Below the pieces are notes generated by a model. The model did no database searches. It was not told the origin of the DNA and worked only from the letters and a program-made list of their open reading frames with translations. DNA of 64,000 bases from Candidatus Accumulibacter phosphatis (lineage in GTDB: Bacteria > Pseudomonadota > Gammaproteobacteria > Burkholderiales > Rhodocyclaceae). Positions 19,440-27,327 of this stretch are shown here, piece by piece. Position 1 is the first letter of the stretch. Every line of letters starts with the position of its first letter. The DNA is taken from NCBI RefSeq assembly GCF_012939955.1, contig NZ_SPMY01000017.1, positions 62,001-126,000 on the forward strand, written 5' to 3'. Made by a program: the position numbers and the translations under genes.

Positions 19440-19607
19440 TGCCCTACGTTAATGTGAAAGTCGCGCAAGCGACTCACGAAACTCCCTTCTCCCTTGCGGG
19501 AGAAGGGGCAGGGGAAGAGGGAAACGGTCATGACTTTCATGATTTGGGGTGTCTCCACGTGTCATGACCGTTAACGTAAAAGTAGCGTACGCGACTTTTT
19601 ACGTTAA
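19440..19607. repeat. Cluster of palindromic repeats between pssA and leuA
   Basis: Four inverted repeats lie in tandem. First, an imperfect palindrome at about 19454-19477 (GTGAAAGTCGC / GCGACTCAC). Second, a hairpin at 19484-19507 (CCCTTCTCCC TTGC GGGAGAAGGG). Third, an inverted pair CGGTCATGAC (19525-19534) and GTCATGACCG (19561-19570). Fourth, a palindrome at 19571-19607 (TTAACGTAAAAGT ... ACTTTTTACGTTAA). The first closely matches a copy at 24085-24121. This is a REP/BIME-like arrangement. It could stabilise or terminate transcripts between leuA and pssA. Confidence 0.8.
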
Positions 19608-22130: not shown

Positions 22131-23843
22131 TTACAGATCTTCGGTCAGAAGCATGTCCGCCAGGCCTTTGCCAGCCGCCACCATCGGGAAAACGTTCGCC
22201 TTCTGATCGGTGATGAAATCGATGAATACCAGGTCGTCCTTGTGCTCGATGAATGCCTTCTTCAGCGCGCCTTCGACGTCTTCGGGCCGTTCGACGCGAA
22301 TGCCGACGTGGCCATAAGCCTCGGCGAGTTTGACGAAGTCGGGCAGCGAGTCCATGTAGGACTCTGAATAACGACTGCCATAGAACATTTCCTGCCACTG
22401 GCGAACCATGCCCAGATAGCGATTGTTGAGGTTGATGATCTTGATCGGCAAACGGAACTGCTTGGCGGTCGACAACTCCTGGATGCACATCTGGATCGAG
22501 CCTTCGCCGGTGACGCAGGCAATCGGCGTTCCCGGGTTGGCCAGCGCCGCGCCCATGGCGTACGGCAGACCGACACCCATCGTCCCGAGGCCACCGGAGT
22601 TGAGCCAGCGGCGCGGTTGATCGAACTTGTAGTACTGTGCAGCCCACATCTGATGCTGACCAACGTCGGAGGTGATGATGGCCTTGCCTTCAGTCACTTC
22701 ATAGAGCTTTTCGATGACGTACTGCGGCATGATGATGCTCTTCTTCTTGCGGTATTTCATGCACTGCTTGGCACGCCACTCCTCGATCTGCTTCCACCAG
22801 CCGGCCAGCACCTCGGCGTCCGGGGCGGCATTGCCGGCATCAAGCAGCTTGAGCAATTCGTCGAGGACGTCCGGGACGTTGCCAACGATCGGCACATCAA
22901 CCTTGACGCGCTTGGAAATCGACGACGGATCAATGTCGATGTGGATGATCTTGCGCGGAATGGACGAAAAGTTCTCTGGATTGCCAATTACCCGGTCGTC
23001 GAAACGCGCGCCGATAGCCAGCAGGACGTCACAGTTCTGCATCGCCAGGTTGGCTTCAACGGTACCGTGCATACCCGGCATGCCGAGAAACTGCTGGTCG
23101 CTTGCCGGATACGCACCGAGACCCATCAAGGTATTGGTAATCGGAAAGCCCAGCCGGCGCACCAGCTTGGTCAACTGTTCGGCACCGTTGGACAGAATGA
23201 CCCCGCCACCGGTATAAACCATCGGCCGCTTGGCCTCGAGCAAGAGGTGTAACGCCTTCTTGATCTGTCCCAGATGCCCCTTGACGACGGGGTTGTAAGA
23301 GCGCAGCTGAATCGTTTCCGGATACTCGAACTTGCACTTGGCGGCGGTGATGTCCTTGGGGATGTCGATGACCACCGGACCGGGACGACCGCTGTTGGCG
23401 ATGAAGAAGGCCTTCTTTATCGTCACTGCCAGATCGTGCACGTCCTTGACCAGGAAGTTGTGCTTCACACAGGGCCGCGTAATGCCGACGGTATCGCATT
23501 CCTGAAAGGCATCCTGACCGATGTACTCGGTCGGCACCTGCCCGGAGATGACCACCAGGGGAATCGAGTCCATGTAGGCCGTCGCGATGCCGGTCACGGC
23601 ATTGGTCGCACCAGGGCCCGAAGTCACCAATGCCACGCCGACCTTGTGGGTCGAACGCGCCAACCCATCGGCAGCATGCACGGCCGCCTGCTCGTGGCGA
23701 ACAAGAATGTGCTTGACCTGATCCTGCTTGAACAGCGCGTCGTACAAATGAAGGACAGCCCCGCCAGGGTAGCCAAACACGTAGTCGACCTTTTCTTCCT
23801 GCAGGCACCTGATTACAATTTCCGCACCGGTCATCATTGTCAT
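22131..23843 (-). CDS. ilvB: Acetolactate synthase large subunit, biosynthetic
   Basis: About 570 residues; I use the ATG at 23843, though ATGs 6 and 9 bases further in are possible. The thiamine diphosphate Glu lies in HEQAAVHAADG. The cofactor-binding loop reads GEGSIQMCIQELSTAKQF ... NLNN, with Glu where many homologues have Asp (GDG). The FAD-domain motif and RYSESYMDSLPDF tail are normal. It makes acetolactate or acetohydroxybutyrate, the first shared step of branched-chain amino acid synthesis. First gene of ilvB-ilvH-ilvC, with the run continuing to pssA and leuA. Confidence 0.96.
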   Translation of the reverse strand: MTMMTGAEIVIRCLQEEKVDYVFGYPGGAVLHLYDALFKQDQVKHILVRHEQAAVHAADGLARSTHKVGVALVTSGPGATNAVTGIATAYMDSIPLVVISGQVPTEYIGQDAFQECDTVGITRPCVKHNFLVKDVHDLAVTIKKAFFIANSGRPGPVVIDIPKDITAAKCKFEYPETIQLRSYNPVVKGHLGQIKKALHLLLEAKRPMVYTGGGVILSNGAEQLTKLVRRLGFPITNTLMGLGAYPASDQQFLGMPGMHGTVEANLAMQNCDVLLAIGARFDDRVIGNPENFSSIPRKIIHIDIDPSSISKRVKVDVPIVGNVPDVLDELLKLLDAGNAAPDAEVLAGWWKQIEEWRAKQCMKYRKKKSIIMPQYVIEKLYEVTEGKAIITSDVGQHQMWAAQYYKFDQPRRWLNSGGLGTMGVGLPYAMGAALANPGTPIACVTGEGSIQMCIQELSTAKQFRLPIKIINLNNRYLGMVRQWQEMFYGSRYSESYMDSLPDFVKLAEAYGHVGIRVERPEDVEGALKKAFIEHKDDLVFIDFITDQKANVFPMVAAGKGLADMLLTEDL

Positions 23844-24178
23844 TACCGTCGCCCCAGCAAGCAAATTGCTCGAAAAAAGTCTGCAACGTTAAAGCTTAGA
23901 CGGAGTTTGGTCAAGGCATTCACCAAACGATCATGGCCTGTCGAGGCCCCCTGGTGATGAATGCCATGACCGCGCCCTCCCTTAGGAGGGCATTCCGGCT
24001 GGCACGCCGGAATTGTTCGACGGGCAGGGAGCATGCCCCCTGAATTCCTCGTCTAACTCCCCGACACTTCTCGCGCCGAGGAAAGAAGGGAGATTCGTGA
24101 GTCGCGGACGCGACTTTCACGGTAAACTGGCGCCTGGGAAAGAAGGCTTCCCGCCCTACAACCGCAAGGATTTCCGCC
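23844..24178. other. Divergent intergenic region between ilvB and the sigma factor gene
   Basis: 335 bases without a supported gene. It contains two small hairpins near 23969-24015 (CCCTCCC TTA GGAGGG and TTCCGGC TGGCA CGCCGGAA), one copy of the palindromic repeat at 24085-24121, and the AAGGA Shine-Dalgarno sequence of the sigma factor gene. No confident promoter or ilv leader peptide was recognised. Confidence 0.6.
24085..24121. repeat. Palindromic repeat, second copy
   Basis: Contains GTGAGTCGCG GA CGCGACTTTCAC (about 24097-24120) preceded by AGAAGGGAGATTC. Its reverse complement matches the repeat at 19454-19490 over roughly 35 bases with few differences (GTGAAAGTCGCG, GCGACTCACGAA, CTCCCTTCT), so the element extends beyond the palindrome itself. 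Confidence 0.8.
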
Positions 24179-24742
24179 CTGGCCAGCCAACGCGAACTGT
24201 CAGACTTTCTTACGGCAGTCGAACGCCGCGCTTTCAAGCAAGCGATGTTCGCAGTGCGCAACGAAGAGTCCGCGCTCGACATCGTCCAGGATGCGATGAT
24301 GAAGCTCGCCGAGAAATACGGAGACCGTCCACCCACAGAGCTGCCGATGCTCTTCCAGCGCATTCTGCAAAACACGATTCGCGACTACTATCGGCGCAGC
24401 AAGGTACGCTCGCTATGGACGACCCTGCTCTCCGCGTTTTCGCCGAACGACGACGAGGATCACGACCCCCTCGAAACCATCAGCAGCGAATCTGACGCCA
24501 ATGGCCCGAAGACGCCACACGGCCAGTTCGAACAGGCACAGGTGATGGGGATGATCGAGAAAGAGATAGAATCTCTGCCTGGGCGTCAACGGGAAGCGTT
24601 TCTTCTGCGTTACTGGGAGGATATGGACGTTGCCGAAACGGCATCGATCATGGGCTGCTCGGAAGGGAGCGTCAAGACACACTGCTCACGTGCCAATCAC
24701 GCTCTTGCGGCTGCACTGAAAGCAAAAGGAATTACCCTATGA
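24179..24742 (+). CDS. ECF-type RNA polymerase sigma factor, probable CTG start
   Basis: 187 residues if started at CTG 24179; the first in-frame ATG is at 24245 and would delete part of the sigma-2 region. Sigma region 2 is AFKQAMFAVRNEESALDIVQDAMMKLAEKYGD and region 4 is LPGRQREAFLLRYWEDMDVAETASIMGCSEGSVKTH. An AAGGA lies 8 bases before the CTG. It heads a four-gene run (sigma, DUF3619, DUF3106, RDD) with overlapping ends. The DUF3619 protein has anti-sigma-like topology. What it responds to cannot be read from the sequence. Confidence 0.88.
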   Translation: MASQRELSDFLTAVERRAFKQAMFAVRNEESALDIVQDAMMKLAEKYGDRPPTELPMLFQRILQNTIRDYYRRSKVRSLWTTLLSAFSPNDDEDHDPLETISSESDANGPKTPHGQFEQAQVMGMIEKEIESLPGRQREAFLLRYWEDMDVAETASIMGCSEGSVKTHCSRANHALAAALKAKGITL

Positions 24743-25116
24743 ACGAAATGCATTTTGTCTTCAAGGTCAGGCAGTACCTGAACAGGGAACTGCATGAACT
24801 ACCACCGTCAACGCACTCGCGTCTGCAAGCGGCGCGCGCGCGCGCGCTGGCTCGTCAAAAAGTAGCCGCCCACCAGTCGATACTGGCGACGGCGGGGAGC
24901 TTCGTTCAAGAGCACACTGAAGGCCTGCGCTTGCGGCAGATTCTCGTGGCACTGGCCCTGGTTGTCGGCGTCACTTCCTACGCTTACTGGCAGGCCGACC
25001 GAAGCATCGCCGAACTCGAGGTCATTGATAGTGCCCTGCTCGCCGACGACTTGCCGATCGCGGCCTTCACCGACCGGGGCTTTGATGCATGGCTGCAAAG
25101 CTCCGCGTCGCACTGA
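24739..25116 (+). CDS. DUF3619 protein, possible anti-sigma partner
   Basis: 125 residues. An N-terminal cytoplasmic stretch of about 70 residues is rich in Arg and Ala, a single helix at about 72-88 (ILVALALVVGVTSYAYW) spans the membrane, and a 35-residue acidic periplasmic tail follows. It starts 4 bases inside the sigma factor gene. The size, single-pass topology and coupling to an ECF sigma gene are what an anti-sigma factor looks like; no zinc HxxxCxxC motif is present. The anti-sigma role is inference. Confidence 0.8.
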   Translation: MNEMHFVFKVRQYLNRELHELPPSTHSRLQAARARALARQKVAAHQSILATAGSFVQEHTEGLRLRQILVALALVVGVTSYAYWQADRSIAELEVIDSALLADDLPIAAFTDRGFDAWLQSSASH

Positions 25117-25685
25117 TTCTCAGCAGCTTCGTAGCCGTCACGAGCTGGGCCGATGTGCTCAGCCCGTCGGCCATTGCCACGCCGGCGCAGCCGCAGTGGA
25201 GCGAGCTCACGGTGGAGCAGAAAACCATCCTCGCACCGCTCAGTTACGACTGGGACGGAATGGACTATGCGCGCCAGAAGAAATGGCTGGGCATCACGCG
25301 ACGTTTCTACAGGATGACCGCTGACGAGCAGCGCAGAGTCCAGGTTCAGATGCAGGACTGGGGAAAGCTGACGCCCCAGCAACGACGACTCGCACGCGAG
25401 AATTTCATCACCGCCAACAAGCTCCCGATCGAAAAGAAACAGGAACTCAGACTGAAGTGGCAGGAGTACTCCAGTCTGCCGGACGAAGAAAAAGAAAGGC
25501 TCAAACAGCAAGCGGCCAACCGGGCGGCACTGAGCACACCCGGACAGCCAGGCAGTAGCGGCGCAGCGGCCAGCCTGATCTCCCCGCCCGCATCCGGAAT
25601 TTTGCCGCTCGGCAGCCATCATCCTGCGCCTGCCCCCAGCAGCAAAGCTGCTGCGCCGGCAACTGCAGCGGATAACAGGGATTGA
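25089..25685 (+). CDS. DUF3106 secreted protein
   Basis: 198 residues with a Sec signal peptide (MAAKLRVALILSSFVAVTSWA). The DUF3106 core carries repeated short helices built on W..L...Q...L (WSELTVEQKTILAPL, WLGITRRFYRMTADEQRRVQ, WGKLTPQQRRLARENF, WQEYSSLPDEEKERLKQQA). A Pro/Ala/Ser-rich tail follows. It overlaps DUF3619 by 28 bases. The repeated WxxLxxxQ pattern resembles periplasmic stress proteins of the Spy/CpxP kind, which supports an envelope-stress role for the operon; this is inference. Confidence 0.82.
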   Translation: MAAKLRVALILSSFVAVTSWADVLSPSAIATPAQPQWSELTVEQKTILAPLSYDWDGMDYARQKKWLGITRRFYRMTADEQRRVQVQMQDWGKLTPQQRRLARENFITANKLPIEKKQELRLKWQEYSSLPDEEKERLKQQAANRAALSTPGQPGSSGAAASLISPPASGILPLGSHHPAPAPSSKAAAPATAADNRD

Positions 25686-26140
25686 CGCCGACCGCGGCTC
25701 CCGTCAGGCGACCGAGCATCACGCGCCGCCTGGCCAGCATGCTGTACGAGTGCTTGTTGTTGTTCGGCATTCTTGCTGCACTGCTGGTCTTGCCACATTT
25801 CCTGCTCGGTGCGCTGGCGCATCGCCTGGTGACGCCGATCATCGTGCAGGCGCATGCCTTTATCGTGCTGCTGGTCTATTGCCTCTGGTTCTGGAGCAAC
25901 GGGCGGCAAACGCTGGCCATGAAGACCTGGCGCATCCGCCTGCTCACCCGTGACGGACAACCGGTCCGGCCGGCGCAGGCGCTACTGCGCTATCTCCTGT
26001 GCTGGCCGAGCATCATCCTGGGTGGTGTTGGCATCCTCTGGGCGCTGGTGGACCGCGAACGCTTGTTTCTGCATGACCGCCTCGCCGGCACGCAACTCGT
26101 ACTGAGTGGAGAATTGGCGAAGCGGCTACCGAGCGGCTAG
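25682..26140 (+). CDS. RDD family membrane protein
   Basis: 152 residues from a TTG that overlaps the DUF3106 stop (TTGA). RDD motifs are visible: ITRRLASMLYECLLLFG with the first Arg, GRQTLAMKTWRIRLLTRDGQP, and a final helix with LVDRERLFLHDRLAGTQLV. Three to four transmembrane helices. RDD proteins are small inner-membrane proteins of mixed or unknown function. Last gene of the sigma factor operon. Confidence 0.87.
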   Translation: MTPTAAPVRRPSITRRLASMLYECLLLFGILAALLVLPHFLLGALAHRLVTPIIVQAHAFIVLLVYCLWFWSNGRQTLAMKTWRIRLLTRDGQPVRPAQALLRYLLCWPSIILGGVGILWALVDRERLFLHDRLAGTQLVLSGELAKRLPSG

Positions 26141-26253
26141 GAAAACGCTCCAAGAACTGGCGTAGACCTGGGCGCTGACCACCGCCTCGATGGTTTTCCC
26201 AGCCTGGTCAAGCGGACTTGCGCACAATGCTGATCAAGGCATGACGCCGCCAA

Positions 26254-27327
26254 TCAGCGTCGCTCGACCCACCAGATCATGGTGATCGCTGCCAGCAGGA
26301 AAAGCGCCGACGGCGTGACCGCGCTGAGTACCGGCGACCAACTGTTGATCGCCCCAAGGTTGGCAAACAGGCCGTTGAGCATGTGGAACAAGATGCCGAT
26401 CATTACCCCGGAGAAGACCTTCAGGCCTACGGCGTCGGAGCGGTAGTGCGCACCTCCGAACGGCAGCGCCAGAGCGACCATCACAAATGCCGCCAGTGGG
26501 TAGACCACTTTTTTCCAGAAGGCAATGTCATAACGGTTGGTCGTCTGGCGATTGTCCGCCAAATGCTTGGTATACGTGGCCAAATGTTGCAGCGACATGC
26601 GATCCGGAGAAACCATCAGCACCGCCAGGATGTCCGGGTTCAGCGCCGACGGCCAGACCAACTCGGGTAGCTTCTGAACATCGGCCCGCTCGGCGTTCAG
26701 GACCGTCTGCAGCACATCGCTCAAGCGCCAACGATCAGGCGCGACGTACTCGCCCTCACTGGCCTCGATAAGCGAGTGTAACTTTGCGTCCTCGTCAAAC
26801 TCGTAAATACGGATCCCCCGCAAGCGCGTATCCGGCAACACCACGCGCACGTTGATGAAACTGGGCTCGTCCTTGACCCACAATCCTGAACGCAAGTCCT
26901 GCCCGATCATTCGCCCCCTGGCTTTCAAGCGCAATTGATTGGCCTCTCTTTCGGCGGTCGGCACCACGTACTCGCCGATCAGGAAAGTGGCGACGGCAAA
27001 CAGGCCCGCGACCAGAAACAGCGCCCGCAACAAGGCTCCCGAAGACAGGCCGGAAACCCGCAGCACGGTGATCTCGGAATGACGAGCCAGCGACGACAAT
27101 GCGTAGAGCGTCCCGATCAGGACGGCAATCGGCATCAACTCGTAGACACGCCCTGGCAGCCGCAGCAGAACGAAAGCAAATGCATGGCGGAGTTGGTAGC
27201 CTCCCCGCCCAATATCCTGGACCTCGCCAAGCAGGTCAAAGAAGGCAAACAATGCCAAGAACGCCAGTAACACCAGGAAAATGGCGCCAGACACCTCGCG
27301 CATCAGGTAGCGACGATAGATCTTCAT
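26254..27327 (-). CDS. lptG: LPS export ABC transporter permease LptG
   Basis: 357 residues of the YjgP/YjgQ family: three N-terminal helices (AIFLVLLAFLALFAFFDLLGE), a periplasmic beta-jellyroll segment, and three C-terminal helices. With LptF and the ATPase LptB it extracts LPS from the inner membrane. It starts in a 4-base overlap with the lptF stop (ATGA). Confidence 0.94.
   Translation of the reverse strand: MKIYRRYLMREVSGAIFLVLLAFLALFAFFDLLGEVQDIGRGGYQLRHAFAFVLLRLPGRVYELMPIAVLIGTLYALSSLARHSEITVLRVSGLSSGALLRALFLVAGLFAVATFLIGEYVVPTAEREANQLRLKARGRMIGQDLRSGLWVKDEPSFINVRVVLPDTRLRGIRIYEFDEDAKLHSLIEASEGEYVAPDRWRLSDVLQTVLNAERADVQKLPELVWPSALNPDILAVLMVSPDRMSLQHLATYTKHLADNRQTTNRYDIAFWKKVVYPLAAFVMVALALPFGGAHYRSDAVGLKVFSGVMIGILFHMLNGLFANLGAINSWSPVLSAVTPSALFLLAAITMIWWVERR

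Follow-up and report, generated by a model that had tools for sequence, protein, structure and literature searches.

A CTG-initiated sigma factor gene with overlapping DUF3619 and DUF3106 genes as a candidate sigma/anti-sigma switch of the order Burkholderiales

CnrYXH of Cupriavidus metallidurans combines a membrane anti-sigma factor (CnrY), a periplasmic sensor (CnrX) and a sigma factor (CnrH). Class I anti-sigma factors (ASDI), such as RseA, RsiW and ChrR, are often single-pass proteins with N-terminal cytoplasmic helices and are encoded next to the sigma gene (PMC7406223). In Streptomyces, sigR has a GTC start codon that is repressed by IF3 and shares an ATGA overlap with rsrA, of which an excess is made from its own promoter and ribosome binding site (RBS); canonical start codons in sigR lead to a constitutive regulon (Feeney et al., 2017; PMC5472188). 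As reported there, the noncanonical start is conserved in 32/34 Streptomyces, infC and sigR belong to the few known genes that need such a codon, and the authors raised a possible wider relevance to other sigma–antisigma pairs. Initiation at CUG is inefficient, with complexes that have lower stability than those at AUG, GUG or UUG (PMC11497404). Here we describe a locus of ‘Candidatus Accumulibacter phosphatis’ that shares traits with these systems. It lies in a window of 64,000 nucleotides (assembly GCF_012939955.1, contig NZ_SPMY01000017.1, positions 62,001 to 126,000), to which all positions below refer. As an earlier note on this DNA had described, four genes with overlapping ends follow each other on the + strand, encoding an extracytoplasmic function (ECF) sigma factor, a DUF3619 protein, a DUF3106 protein and an RDD-family membrane protein. 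On balance we favour the reading that these genes form a sigma/anti-sigma switch common to the order Burkholderiales, in which the sigma factor is throttled by a weak initiation site and DUF3106 acts as periplasmic co-regulator. The conserved CTG start codon of the sigma gene is the surprising part, which the earlier note had overlooked.

The sigma gene (24179..24742, +) encodes 187 amino acids and starts with CTG at 24179-24181, eight nucleotides 3' of a Shine-Dalgarno sequence AAGGA (24166..24170, +; duplex energy -5.2). The protein is a member of the NCBIfam equivalog NF006550 (PRK09047), with 277.9 bits against a curated cut-off of 173; the description of this family reads ‘RNA polymerase sigma factor’ and nothing more. 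It matched the ECF superfamily TIGR02937 (2.1e-20) and the Pfam families Sigma70_r4_2 (6.5e-17) and Sigma70_r2 (2e-5), and no region 3 family was listed. Regions 2 and 4, no match to region 3 and a size of about 20 kDa place it among the ECF (group IV) sigma factors. The stop codon of the sigma gene overlaps the start of DUF3619 in an ATGA (24739..24742, +). The closest locus found, L059 of Candidatus Accumulibacter adiacens, has a sigma factor 98% identical across the whole query.

We compared 231 loci. Besides the window, a search with DUF3619 supplied 30 and a search with sigma 80, and 120 were regions around places found in the DUF3619 search. This set is not random: the DUF3619 loci are the top-scoring part of the matches, the sigma loci are those closest to the window, and the window itself occurs twice (duplicate L238). 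Clustering of the 229 DUF3619-bearing loci at 90% identity gave 183 non-redundant loci, on which most counts are based. The sigma gene is followed by DUF3619 in 229/231 loci. DUF3619 adjoins sigma in 78/80 loci found with sigma, sigma adjoins DUF3619 in 150/150 loci found with DUF3619, and this adjacency is beyond chance. DUF3106 comes next in 226/229 loci and the three exceptions are all at contig ends. A 4-bp overlap of sigma and DUF3619 (ATGA or GTGA) is present in 209/229 loci. Of the 183 non-redundant loci, 165 have an ATG and 18 a GTG start of DUF3619, and the DUF3106 start precedes the DUF3619 end in 136/180. In all these overlap counts, the starts of both genes were picked by a script favouring positions close to the overlap.

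Co-occurrence was surveyed in 399 sampled genomes of the order Burkholderiales (sigma E <= 1e-40, DUF3619 E <= 0.001). Sigma was found in 287 and DUF3619 in 285 of them. Comparison of the printed match lists by eye gave 283 genomes that have the two genes together and 110 that lack them; sigma stood alone in four (G001, G004, G096 and G326) and DUF3619 in two (G123 and G216). The genomes with sigma alone fall in families f2 and f5, where the other members mostly match DUF3619 weakly (1e-15 to 1e-4), so DUF3619 may have diverged there rather than been lost. In a survey of the whole phylum, 22/349 genomes had DUF3619; only two of these were outside Burkholderiales and both matches were weak (3e-4). 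Sigma, DUF3619 and DUF3106 form a near-strict unit of this order. The gene unit of the earlier note is real and order-wide, and the circuit built on it is plausible, with binding of sigma, sensing by DUF3106 and an envelope-stress role as its hypothetical parts. As to its suggestion of an undescribed circuit, full-text searches of the literature available gave no paper that names DUF3619, DUF3106 or PRK09047, none of the titles and abstract openings among the literature matches listed deals with this operon or with a sigma factor that starts with CTG, and the available excerpts of PMC8103513, PMC7406223 and PMC9045368 contain nothing on the unit.

The DUF3619 gene (24739..25116, +) encodes 125 amino acids and matches PF12279 (8e-30; 104.4 bits, gathering cut-off 22.2). 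Family hydropathy predicts one transmembrane segment at about residues 68-84 (24940..24990, +; median start residue 68), preceded by a probably cytoplasmic N-terminal part and followed by a conserved, probably periplasmic C-terminal tail (25024..25095, +), which reads IDSALLADDLPIAAFTDRGFDAWL in the window and D.aLL.DDLP..AY.D.GF..WL in the family. The best 19-residue Kyte-Doolittle mean of this single hydrophobic stretch was at least 1.6 in 191/229 proteins, with a minimum of 1.29. The HxxxCxxC motif of zinc class I anti-sigma factors and RsrA occurred in 0/229 DUF3619 proteins, so that the description of a single-pass membrane protein without a zinc motif holds for the family. Like class I anti-sigma factors, DUF3619 is single-pass and encoded beside sigma; it differs from them in having neither the zinc motif nor a convincing profile match, and in an AlphaFold model of a relative (L056) two longer helices and one short helix are predicted ahead of the transmembrane helix. 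Topology, gene overlap, co-occurrence, the layout of the start sites and the joint loss described below all fit an anti-sigma function, and DUF3619 is probably an anti-sigma factor. The sigma factor would then be held at the membrane protein, with the helical N-terminal part of DUF3619 toward the cytoplasm and its conserved tail toward the periplasm. DUF3106 would be the periplasmic co-regulator that acts on this tail.

Natural deletions provide further evidence on the composition of the unit. In L082 (genome G722) and L084 (genome G723), DUF3619 and DUF3106 are both gone from the locus, and sigma, its CTG start and RDD are kept. L084 carries ATGAACGAA after sigma, which resembles the first codons of DUF3619. 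Genome searches found DUF3619 nowhere in G722 or G723, and DUF3106 was absent from G723 and gave a weak partial match (5e-5) in G722; completeness was not given for either genome. Starred branches of the tree force two separate losses and 0% of 200 bootstrap trees join the two loci, but an approximately unbiased (AU) test does not reject them as one clade (p 0.081). At 0.51, the branch of the L082 row is longer than those of most neighbouring rows. From the joint loss, DUF3619 and DUF3106 seem to form a functional pair, and a sigma factor without them is tolerated. RDD is set apart from the core unit, because it is kept where these two genes were lost. Of 140 non-redundant loci whose downstream flank covers 3.4 kb or more, 129 have RDD, and in the other 11 it was not found. 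Membership of RDD in the circuit is thus doubtful, and it would be a co-transcribed yet separable membrane protein. Of the signal-transduction unit proposed in the earlier note, the data support a conserved, overlapping set of a sigma factor, a single-pass membrane protein and a probably exported helical protein, with joint loss of the latter two and a start-site layout that favours DUF3619.

Several results count against the favoured reading or are neutral to it. Firstly, there was no anti-sigma family among the listed 25 of the 36 Pfam families that matched DUF3619 members. The NCBIfam antisigma model NF052375 (curated cut-off 100 bits) matched 3/60 DUF3619 members at E <= 0.5, with a best value of 0.0045, and did not match the protein of the window; hhalign gave a probability of 0.8% for DUF3619 against the NF052375 family, in comparisons made without the short rows L270, L272 and L296. 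RseA_N was not found in the window's own genome, and in a sequence search of the PDB the best E for DUF3619 was 0.19 and sigma matched no chain at E <= 1e-5. Secondly, the L056 model, a read-through of sigma and DUF3619 with a predicted local distance difference test (pLDDT) of 72.5 and a predicted template modelling score (pTM) of 0.41, gives no information on docking, and only its sigma part matched structures, which were chains of ECF sigma factors; a further search for in-frame loci added none to the set. Thirdly, direct coupling analysis (DCA) gave top sigma–DUF3619 couplings of Z 7.7, 7.3 and 6.6, above all 12 clade-wise shuffles (maximum 6.27), but sigma–DUF3106 pairs, which are not expected to touch, reach Z 7.5 and 7.1, and shuffles were run for sigma–DUF3619 only. 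The two strongest DUF3619–DUF3106 couplings probably reflect the overlapping reading frames. Lastly, no conserved ECF-type autoregulatory promoter from which the regulon could be predicted was found in the 183 regions upstream of sigma.

These results leave room for an alternative in which DUF3619 and DUF3106 are a sigma-dependent or accessory envelope module rather than an anti-sigma system, and the sigma factor is governed mainly by low synthesis. The lack of a convincing profile link to anti-sigma families, a model that gives no docking information, couplings no stronger than those of a pair not expected to touch, and the persistence of sigma without DUF3619 in two genomes agree with it. 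We regard this as unlikely, since the 4-bp overlap, the near-perfect co-occurrence, the single-pass topology and the ribosome binding signals that favour DUF3619 are known traits of sigma/anti-sigma pairs.

The second alternative concerns DUF3106. Its gene (25089..25685, +) overlaps DUF3619 by 28 bp (25089-25116) and encodes an all-helical protein of 198 amino acids that is probably exported, as judged from an N-terminal signal in its sequence; it matches PF11304 (8.6e-30; 103.7 bits, gathering cut-off 24.3). A PF11304 match below the cut-off was seen in Escherichia coli among the control genomes. The WxxLxxxQ repeats noted earlier are visible (WSELTVEQ, WGKLTPQQ) and the helical part of that description stands, with secretion being the predicted part. 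The arrangement resembles CnrYXH, as both have a three-part layout of a sigma factor, a short single-pass membrane protein and a periplasmic helical protein. The gene order of CnrYXH is different, and no common sequence family was found to link the two systems. Still, DUF3106 might be a periplasmic sensor of the Metal_resist/LTXXQ type comparable to CnrX, with DUF3619 in the role of CnrY and sigma in that of CnrH; the signal would then be metal or periplasmic misfolding. DUF3106 members weakly but recurrently match the Pfam families Metal_resist (10/60, best 0.0091) and LTXXQ (5/60, best 0.0023), and hhalign of DUF3106 with 26 Metal_resist proteins gave a probability of 32% (E 4.8e-4), compared with at most 1.4% for eight other pairs. 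However, matches to TetR_C_24 (22/60) and KRAB (16/60) are more frequent, and the resemblance may therefore come from helical composition. A Spy/CpxP/CnrX fold, suggested by LTPEQR motifs, gained no support beyond these weak profile hints: the AlphaFold model of DUF3106 is confident (block-wise mean pLDDT of 88-97 for residues 31-150), but a PDB search with it listed no CnrX, and the best values were E 0.55 in the PDB sequence search, E 3.3 in Foldseek and Z 3.5 in VIA among 40 chains. A CnrYXH-like circuit is therefore improbable.

The favoured reading includes weak initiation of the sigma gene. A program-made list of open reading frames, which allows ATG, GTG and TTG starts, places the sigma start 22 codons later, at 24245. 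The start at 24179 proposed in the earlier note is supported by comparison with relatives, and rests on them because the window has an in-frame ATT at 24170 that could be an alternative start. When the 183 non-redundant loci were anchored on the ERRAF block, the first codon was CTG in 128, ATG in 38, TTG in 14 and GTG in 3 (a first tally of 125/38/14/3 with n=180 was completed by three rows with D in the anchor). The position is thus NTG in 183/183 loci, and never CTC, CTT, CTA or TTA. Nucleotide conservation starts at this codon, and the one prominent feature 5' of it is a Shine-Dalgarno sequence at -12 to -9. In 126 whole-genome loci that carry a family code, 26/33 families have CTG, which is the sole codon in 23; ATG occurs in five families, never alongside CTG in one family. 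The nearest ATG, GTG or TTG 3' of the CTG is at a median of 22 codons inside the gene (128 CTG loci). CTG is the sole NTG within 12 codons on either side in 95/183 sigma genes, as compared with 4/159 for ilvI, 0/130 for ilvH, 0/95 for lptF, 3/157 for DUF3106, 7/164 for RDD and 6/97 for pepA, the start of which was misplaced. Where start columns could be pinned, ilvH had ATG in 126/130 and CTG in 1/130, and lptF had CTG in 3/98; we relied on these two controls, as the DUF3106, RDD and ilvI columns gave no single start and pepA was poor.

Start codon and Shine-Dalgarno strength together point to unequal synthesis of the two proteins. With a duplex energy of <= -5 kcal/mol taken as strong, a strong Shine-Dalgarno sequence precedes the sigma start in 74/128 loci with CTG, 1/38 with ATG, 3/14 with TTG and 0/3 with GTG. 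For DUF3619 in the same groups of loci the numbers are 97/128, 36/38, 12/14 and 3/3, or 148/183 overall (81%). In most loci, sigma thus has a weak start and DUF3619 a stronger one. In the window, the Shine-Dalgarno sequence of DUF3619, AAAAGGA (24724..24730, +), lies within the 3' end of sigma, at the codons around K-G-I. These residues are conserved near the C-terminus of the sigma factor and coincide with the signal, so that part of the protein conservation may be at the RNA level. From its start codon and the Shine-Dalgarno pattern, sigma translation looks held below that of DUF3619. Sigma synthesis would be kept low through a weak start, namely CTG, often with a Shine-Dalgarno sequence, in most lineages, and ATG without one in others. 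DUF3619 starts with ATG or GTG, in most loci behind a Shine-Dalgarno sequence of its own inside sigma, and should be made in excess.

The unit resembles sigR–rsrA in several respects. Both have an ECF sigma factor with a conserved noncanonical start and an RBS (here, CTG in 128/183 and a strong Shine-Dalgarno sequence in 74/128), an ATGA overlap, an RBS of the next gene inside the sigma gene (97/128), and a sigma start that is likely misannotated. The Burkholderiales unit differs in that it belongs to an unrelated lineage, uses CTG instead of GTC, is conserved across the families of an order, and has as partner a membrane protein without a zinc motif. By analogy it fits the suggestion of wider relevance made by Feeney et al. 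(2017), with a different sigma factor and a different codon. By the same analogy, the CTG may be repressed by IF3. It is possible, and we put this forward tentatively, that the CUG start is kept order-wide as a regulatory device that arose independently of Streptomyces sigR. Initiation fidelity (IF3, initiator tRNA) would then set the ratio of sigma to anti-sigma, and might couple the translation status to a stress response under a new family of anti-sigma factors (DUF3619) and a new family of periplasmic regulators (DUF3106).

Some observations count against such a regulatory role. Parsimony on one tree requires nine changes at the sigma start codon and 54-85 at ten conserved leucine codons, but this contrast partly reflects the fixed third base of any start codon. 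When CTG and TTG rows alone are considered, 4-25 changes in 46-115 rows are required at the ten leucine codons, compared with seven in 145 non-ATG rows (GTG included) at the start; the start has the lowest number per row, with a small margin over two leucine codons. In L082 and L084 the CTG persists in the absence of DUF3619, and partner stoichiometry alone does therefore not explain the codon. Strong Shine-Dalgarno sequences are absent from 54/128 CTG sigma starts and from 31/128 DUF3619 starts of those loci. Lack of such a signal is also found in lptF (strong in 6/83 and 0/4 loci), though not in ilvH (52/104 and 13/20). Furthermore, the tree has just two switches between ATG and CTG. The trade-off between start codon and Shine-Dalgarno strength thus rests on about two events, its Mann-Whitney p of 1e-16 disregards relatedness, and a phylogeny-aware test had two independent pairs only. 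The CTG could accordingly be a frozen ancestral accident without regulatory meaning, as the two switches, its retention in L082 and L084 and the modest C/T contrast with internal leucine codons would allow. This is improbable in view of the occurrence of CTG in 26/33 families, unmixed with ATG, although one transition gives TTG, and of ATG lineages that lack the Shine-Dalgarno sequence of sigma while keeping that of DUF3619 in the same loci. That the true start is an ATG or GTG further upstream and the leucine codon is internal is very improbable: the NF006550 model has seven positions 5' of the CTG, probably from annotated upstream starts, and in 55/128 CTG loci the stretch from the preceding in-frame stop to the CTG contains ATG, GTG or TTG, but the other 73 have none, 45/128 also lack ATT, ATC and ATA and thus any possible upstream start, the codon is NTG in all loci, and only the Shine-Dalgarno sequence is conserved before it.

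Several genome matches to NF006550 extend into its positions 1-7, which fall 5' of the CTG in the window as well, and include one stop codon. As these matches run 5' of the CTG across a stop codon, public N-termini of PRK09047 sigma factors are probably wrong in many species. If the CTG start is genuine, gene callers limited to ATG, GTG and TTG misplace this N-terminus widely. If the proposed switch is correct, weakness of the start codon would be a design that recurs among sigma/anti-sigma switches, IF3 might be a hidden input to them, and two families of unknown function, DUF3619 and DUF3106, would gain a testable role. pcnB is another gene that needs a noncanonical start codon.

The unit ends with the RDD gene (25682..26140, +; PF06271, 2.5e-17), the TTG start of which overlaps the DUF3106 stop by 4 bp (25682-25685). 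Divergent genes, which we take from their sequences to be ilvI, ilvH and ilvC, lie 5' of sigma. On the 3' side there are two permease genes on the opposite strand, presumably lptF and lptG, and then a gene on the sigma strand that we read as pepA. Divergent ilvI was found in 130/151 non-redundant loci that have 1.5 kb or more of upstream sequence, and opposite-strand lptF in 104/140 that have 3.4 kb or more of downstream sequence. The conserved upstream motif TTGGTCAAG was considered as an autoregulatory ECF promoter of sigma and rejected, because it reads as the promoter of divergent ilvI (23886..23915, -), with a putative -35 TTGACC (23909-23914) and -10 TAACGT (23886-23891); GGTCAA is present in 141/183 upstream regions, with the conserved -10 at fixed spacing. 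A weaker TTGCTA motif upstream of sigma occurs in 49/183 regions, where 7.0 are expected, and may be a housekeeping extended -10 for sigma. No RNA family reached its gathering score in 23700-26300, and CTG and ATG loci are not separated by the folding energy around the sigma start.

Between the ilvI promoter and sigma lies a dispersed genomic repeat of 120 bp (24002..24121, no strand assigned), which is not part of the circuit. Besides the window, its own genome holds at least 40 matches of about 114-135 bp (82-87% identity) and four shorter ones, from 302 first-look candidates of which 40 were scored. Among the loci examined, a full copy is present in the window and its duplicate L238 only, and L062 has a 36-bp piece. 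Single-strand folding of the repeat is unremarkable (z -0.38). A partial copy lies at 19454-19513 of the window, on the other strand.

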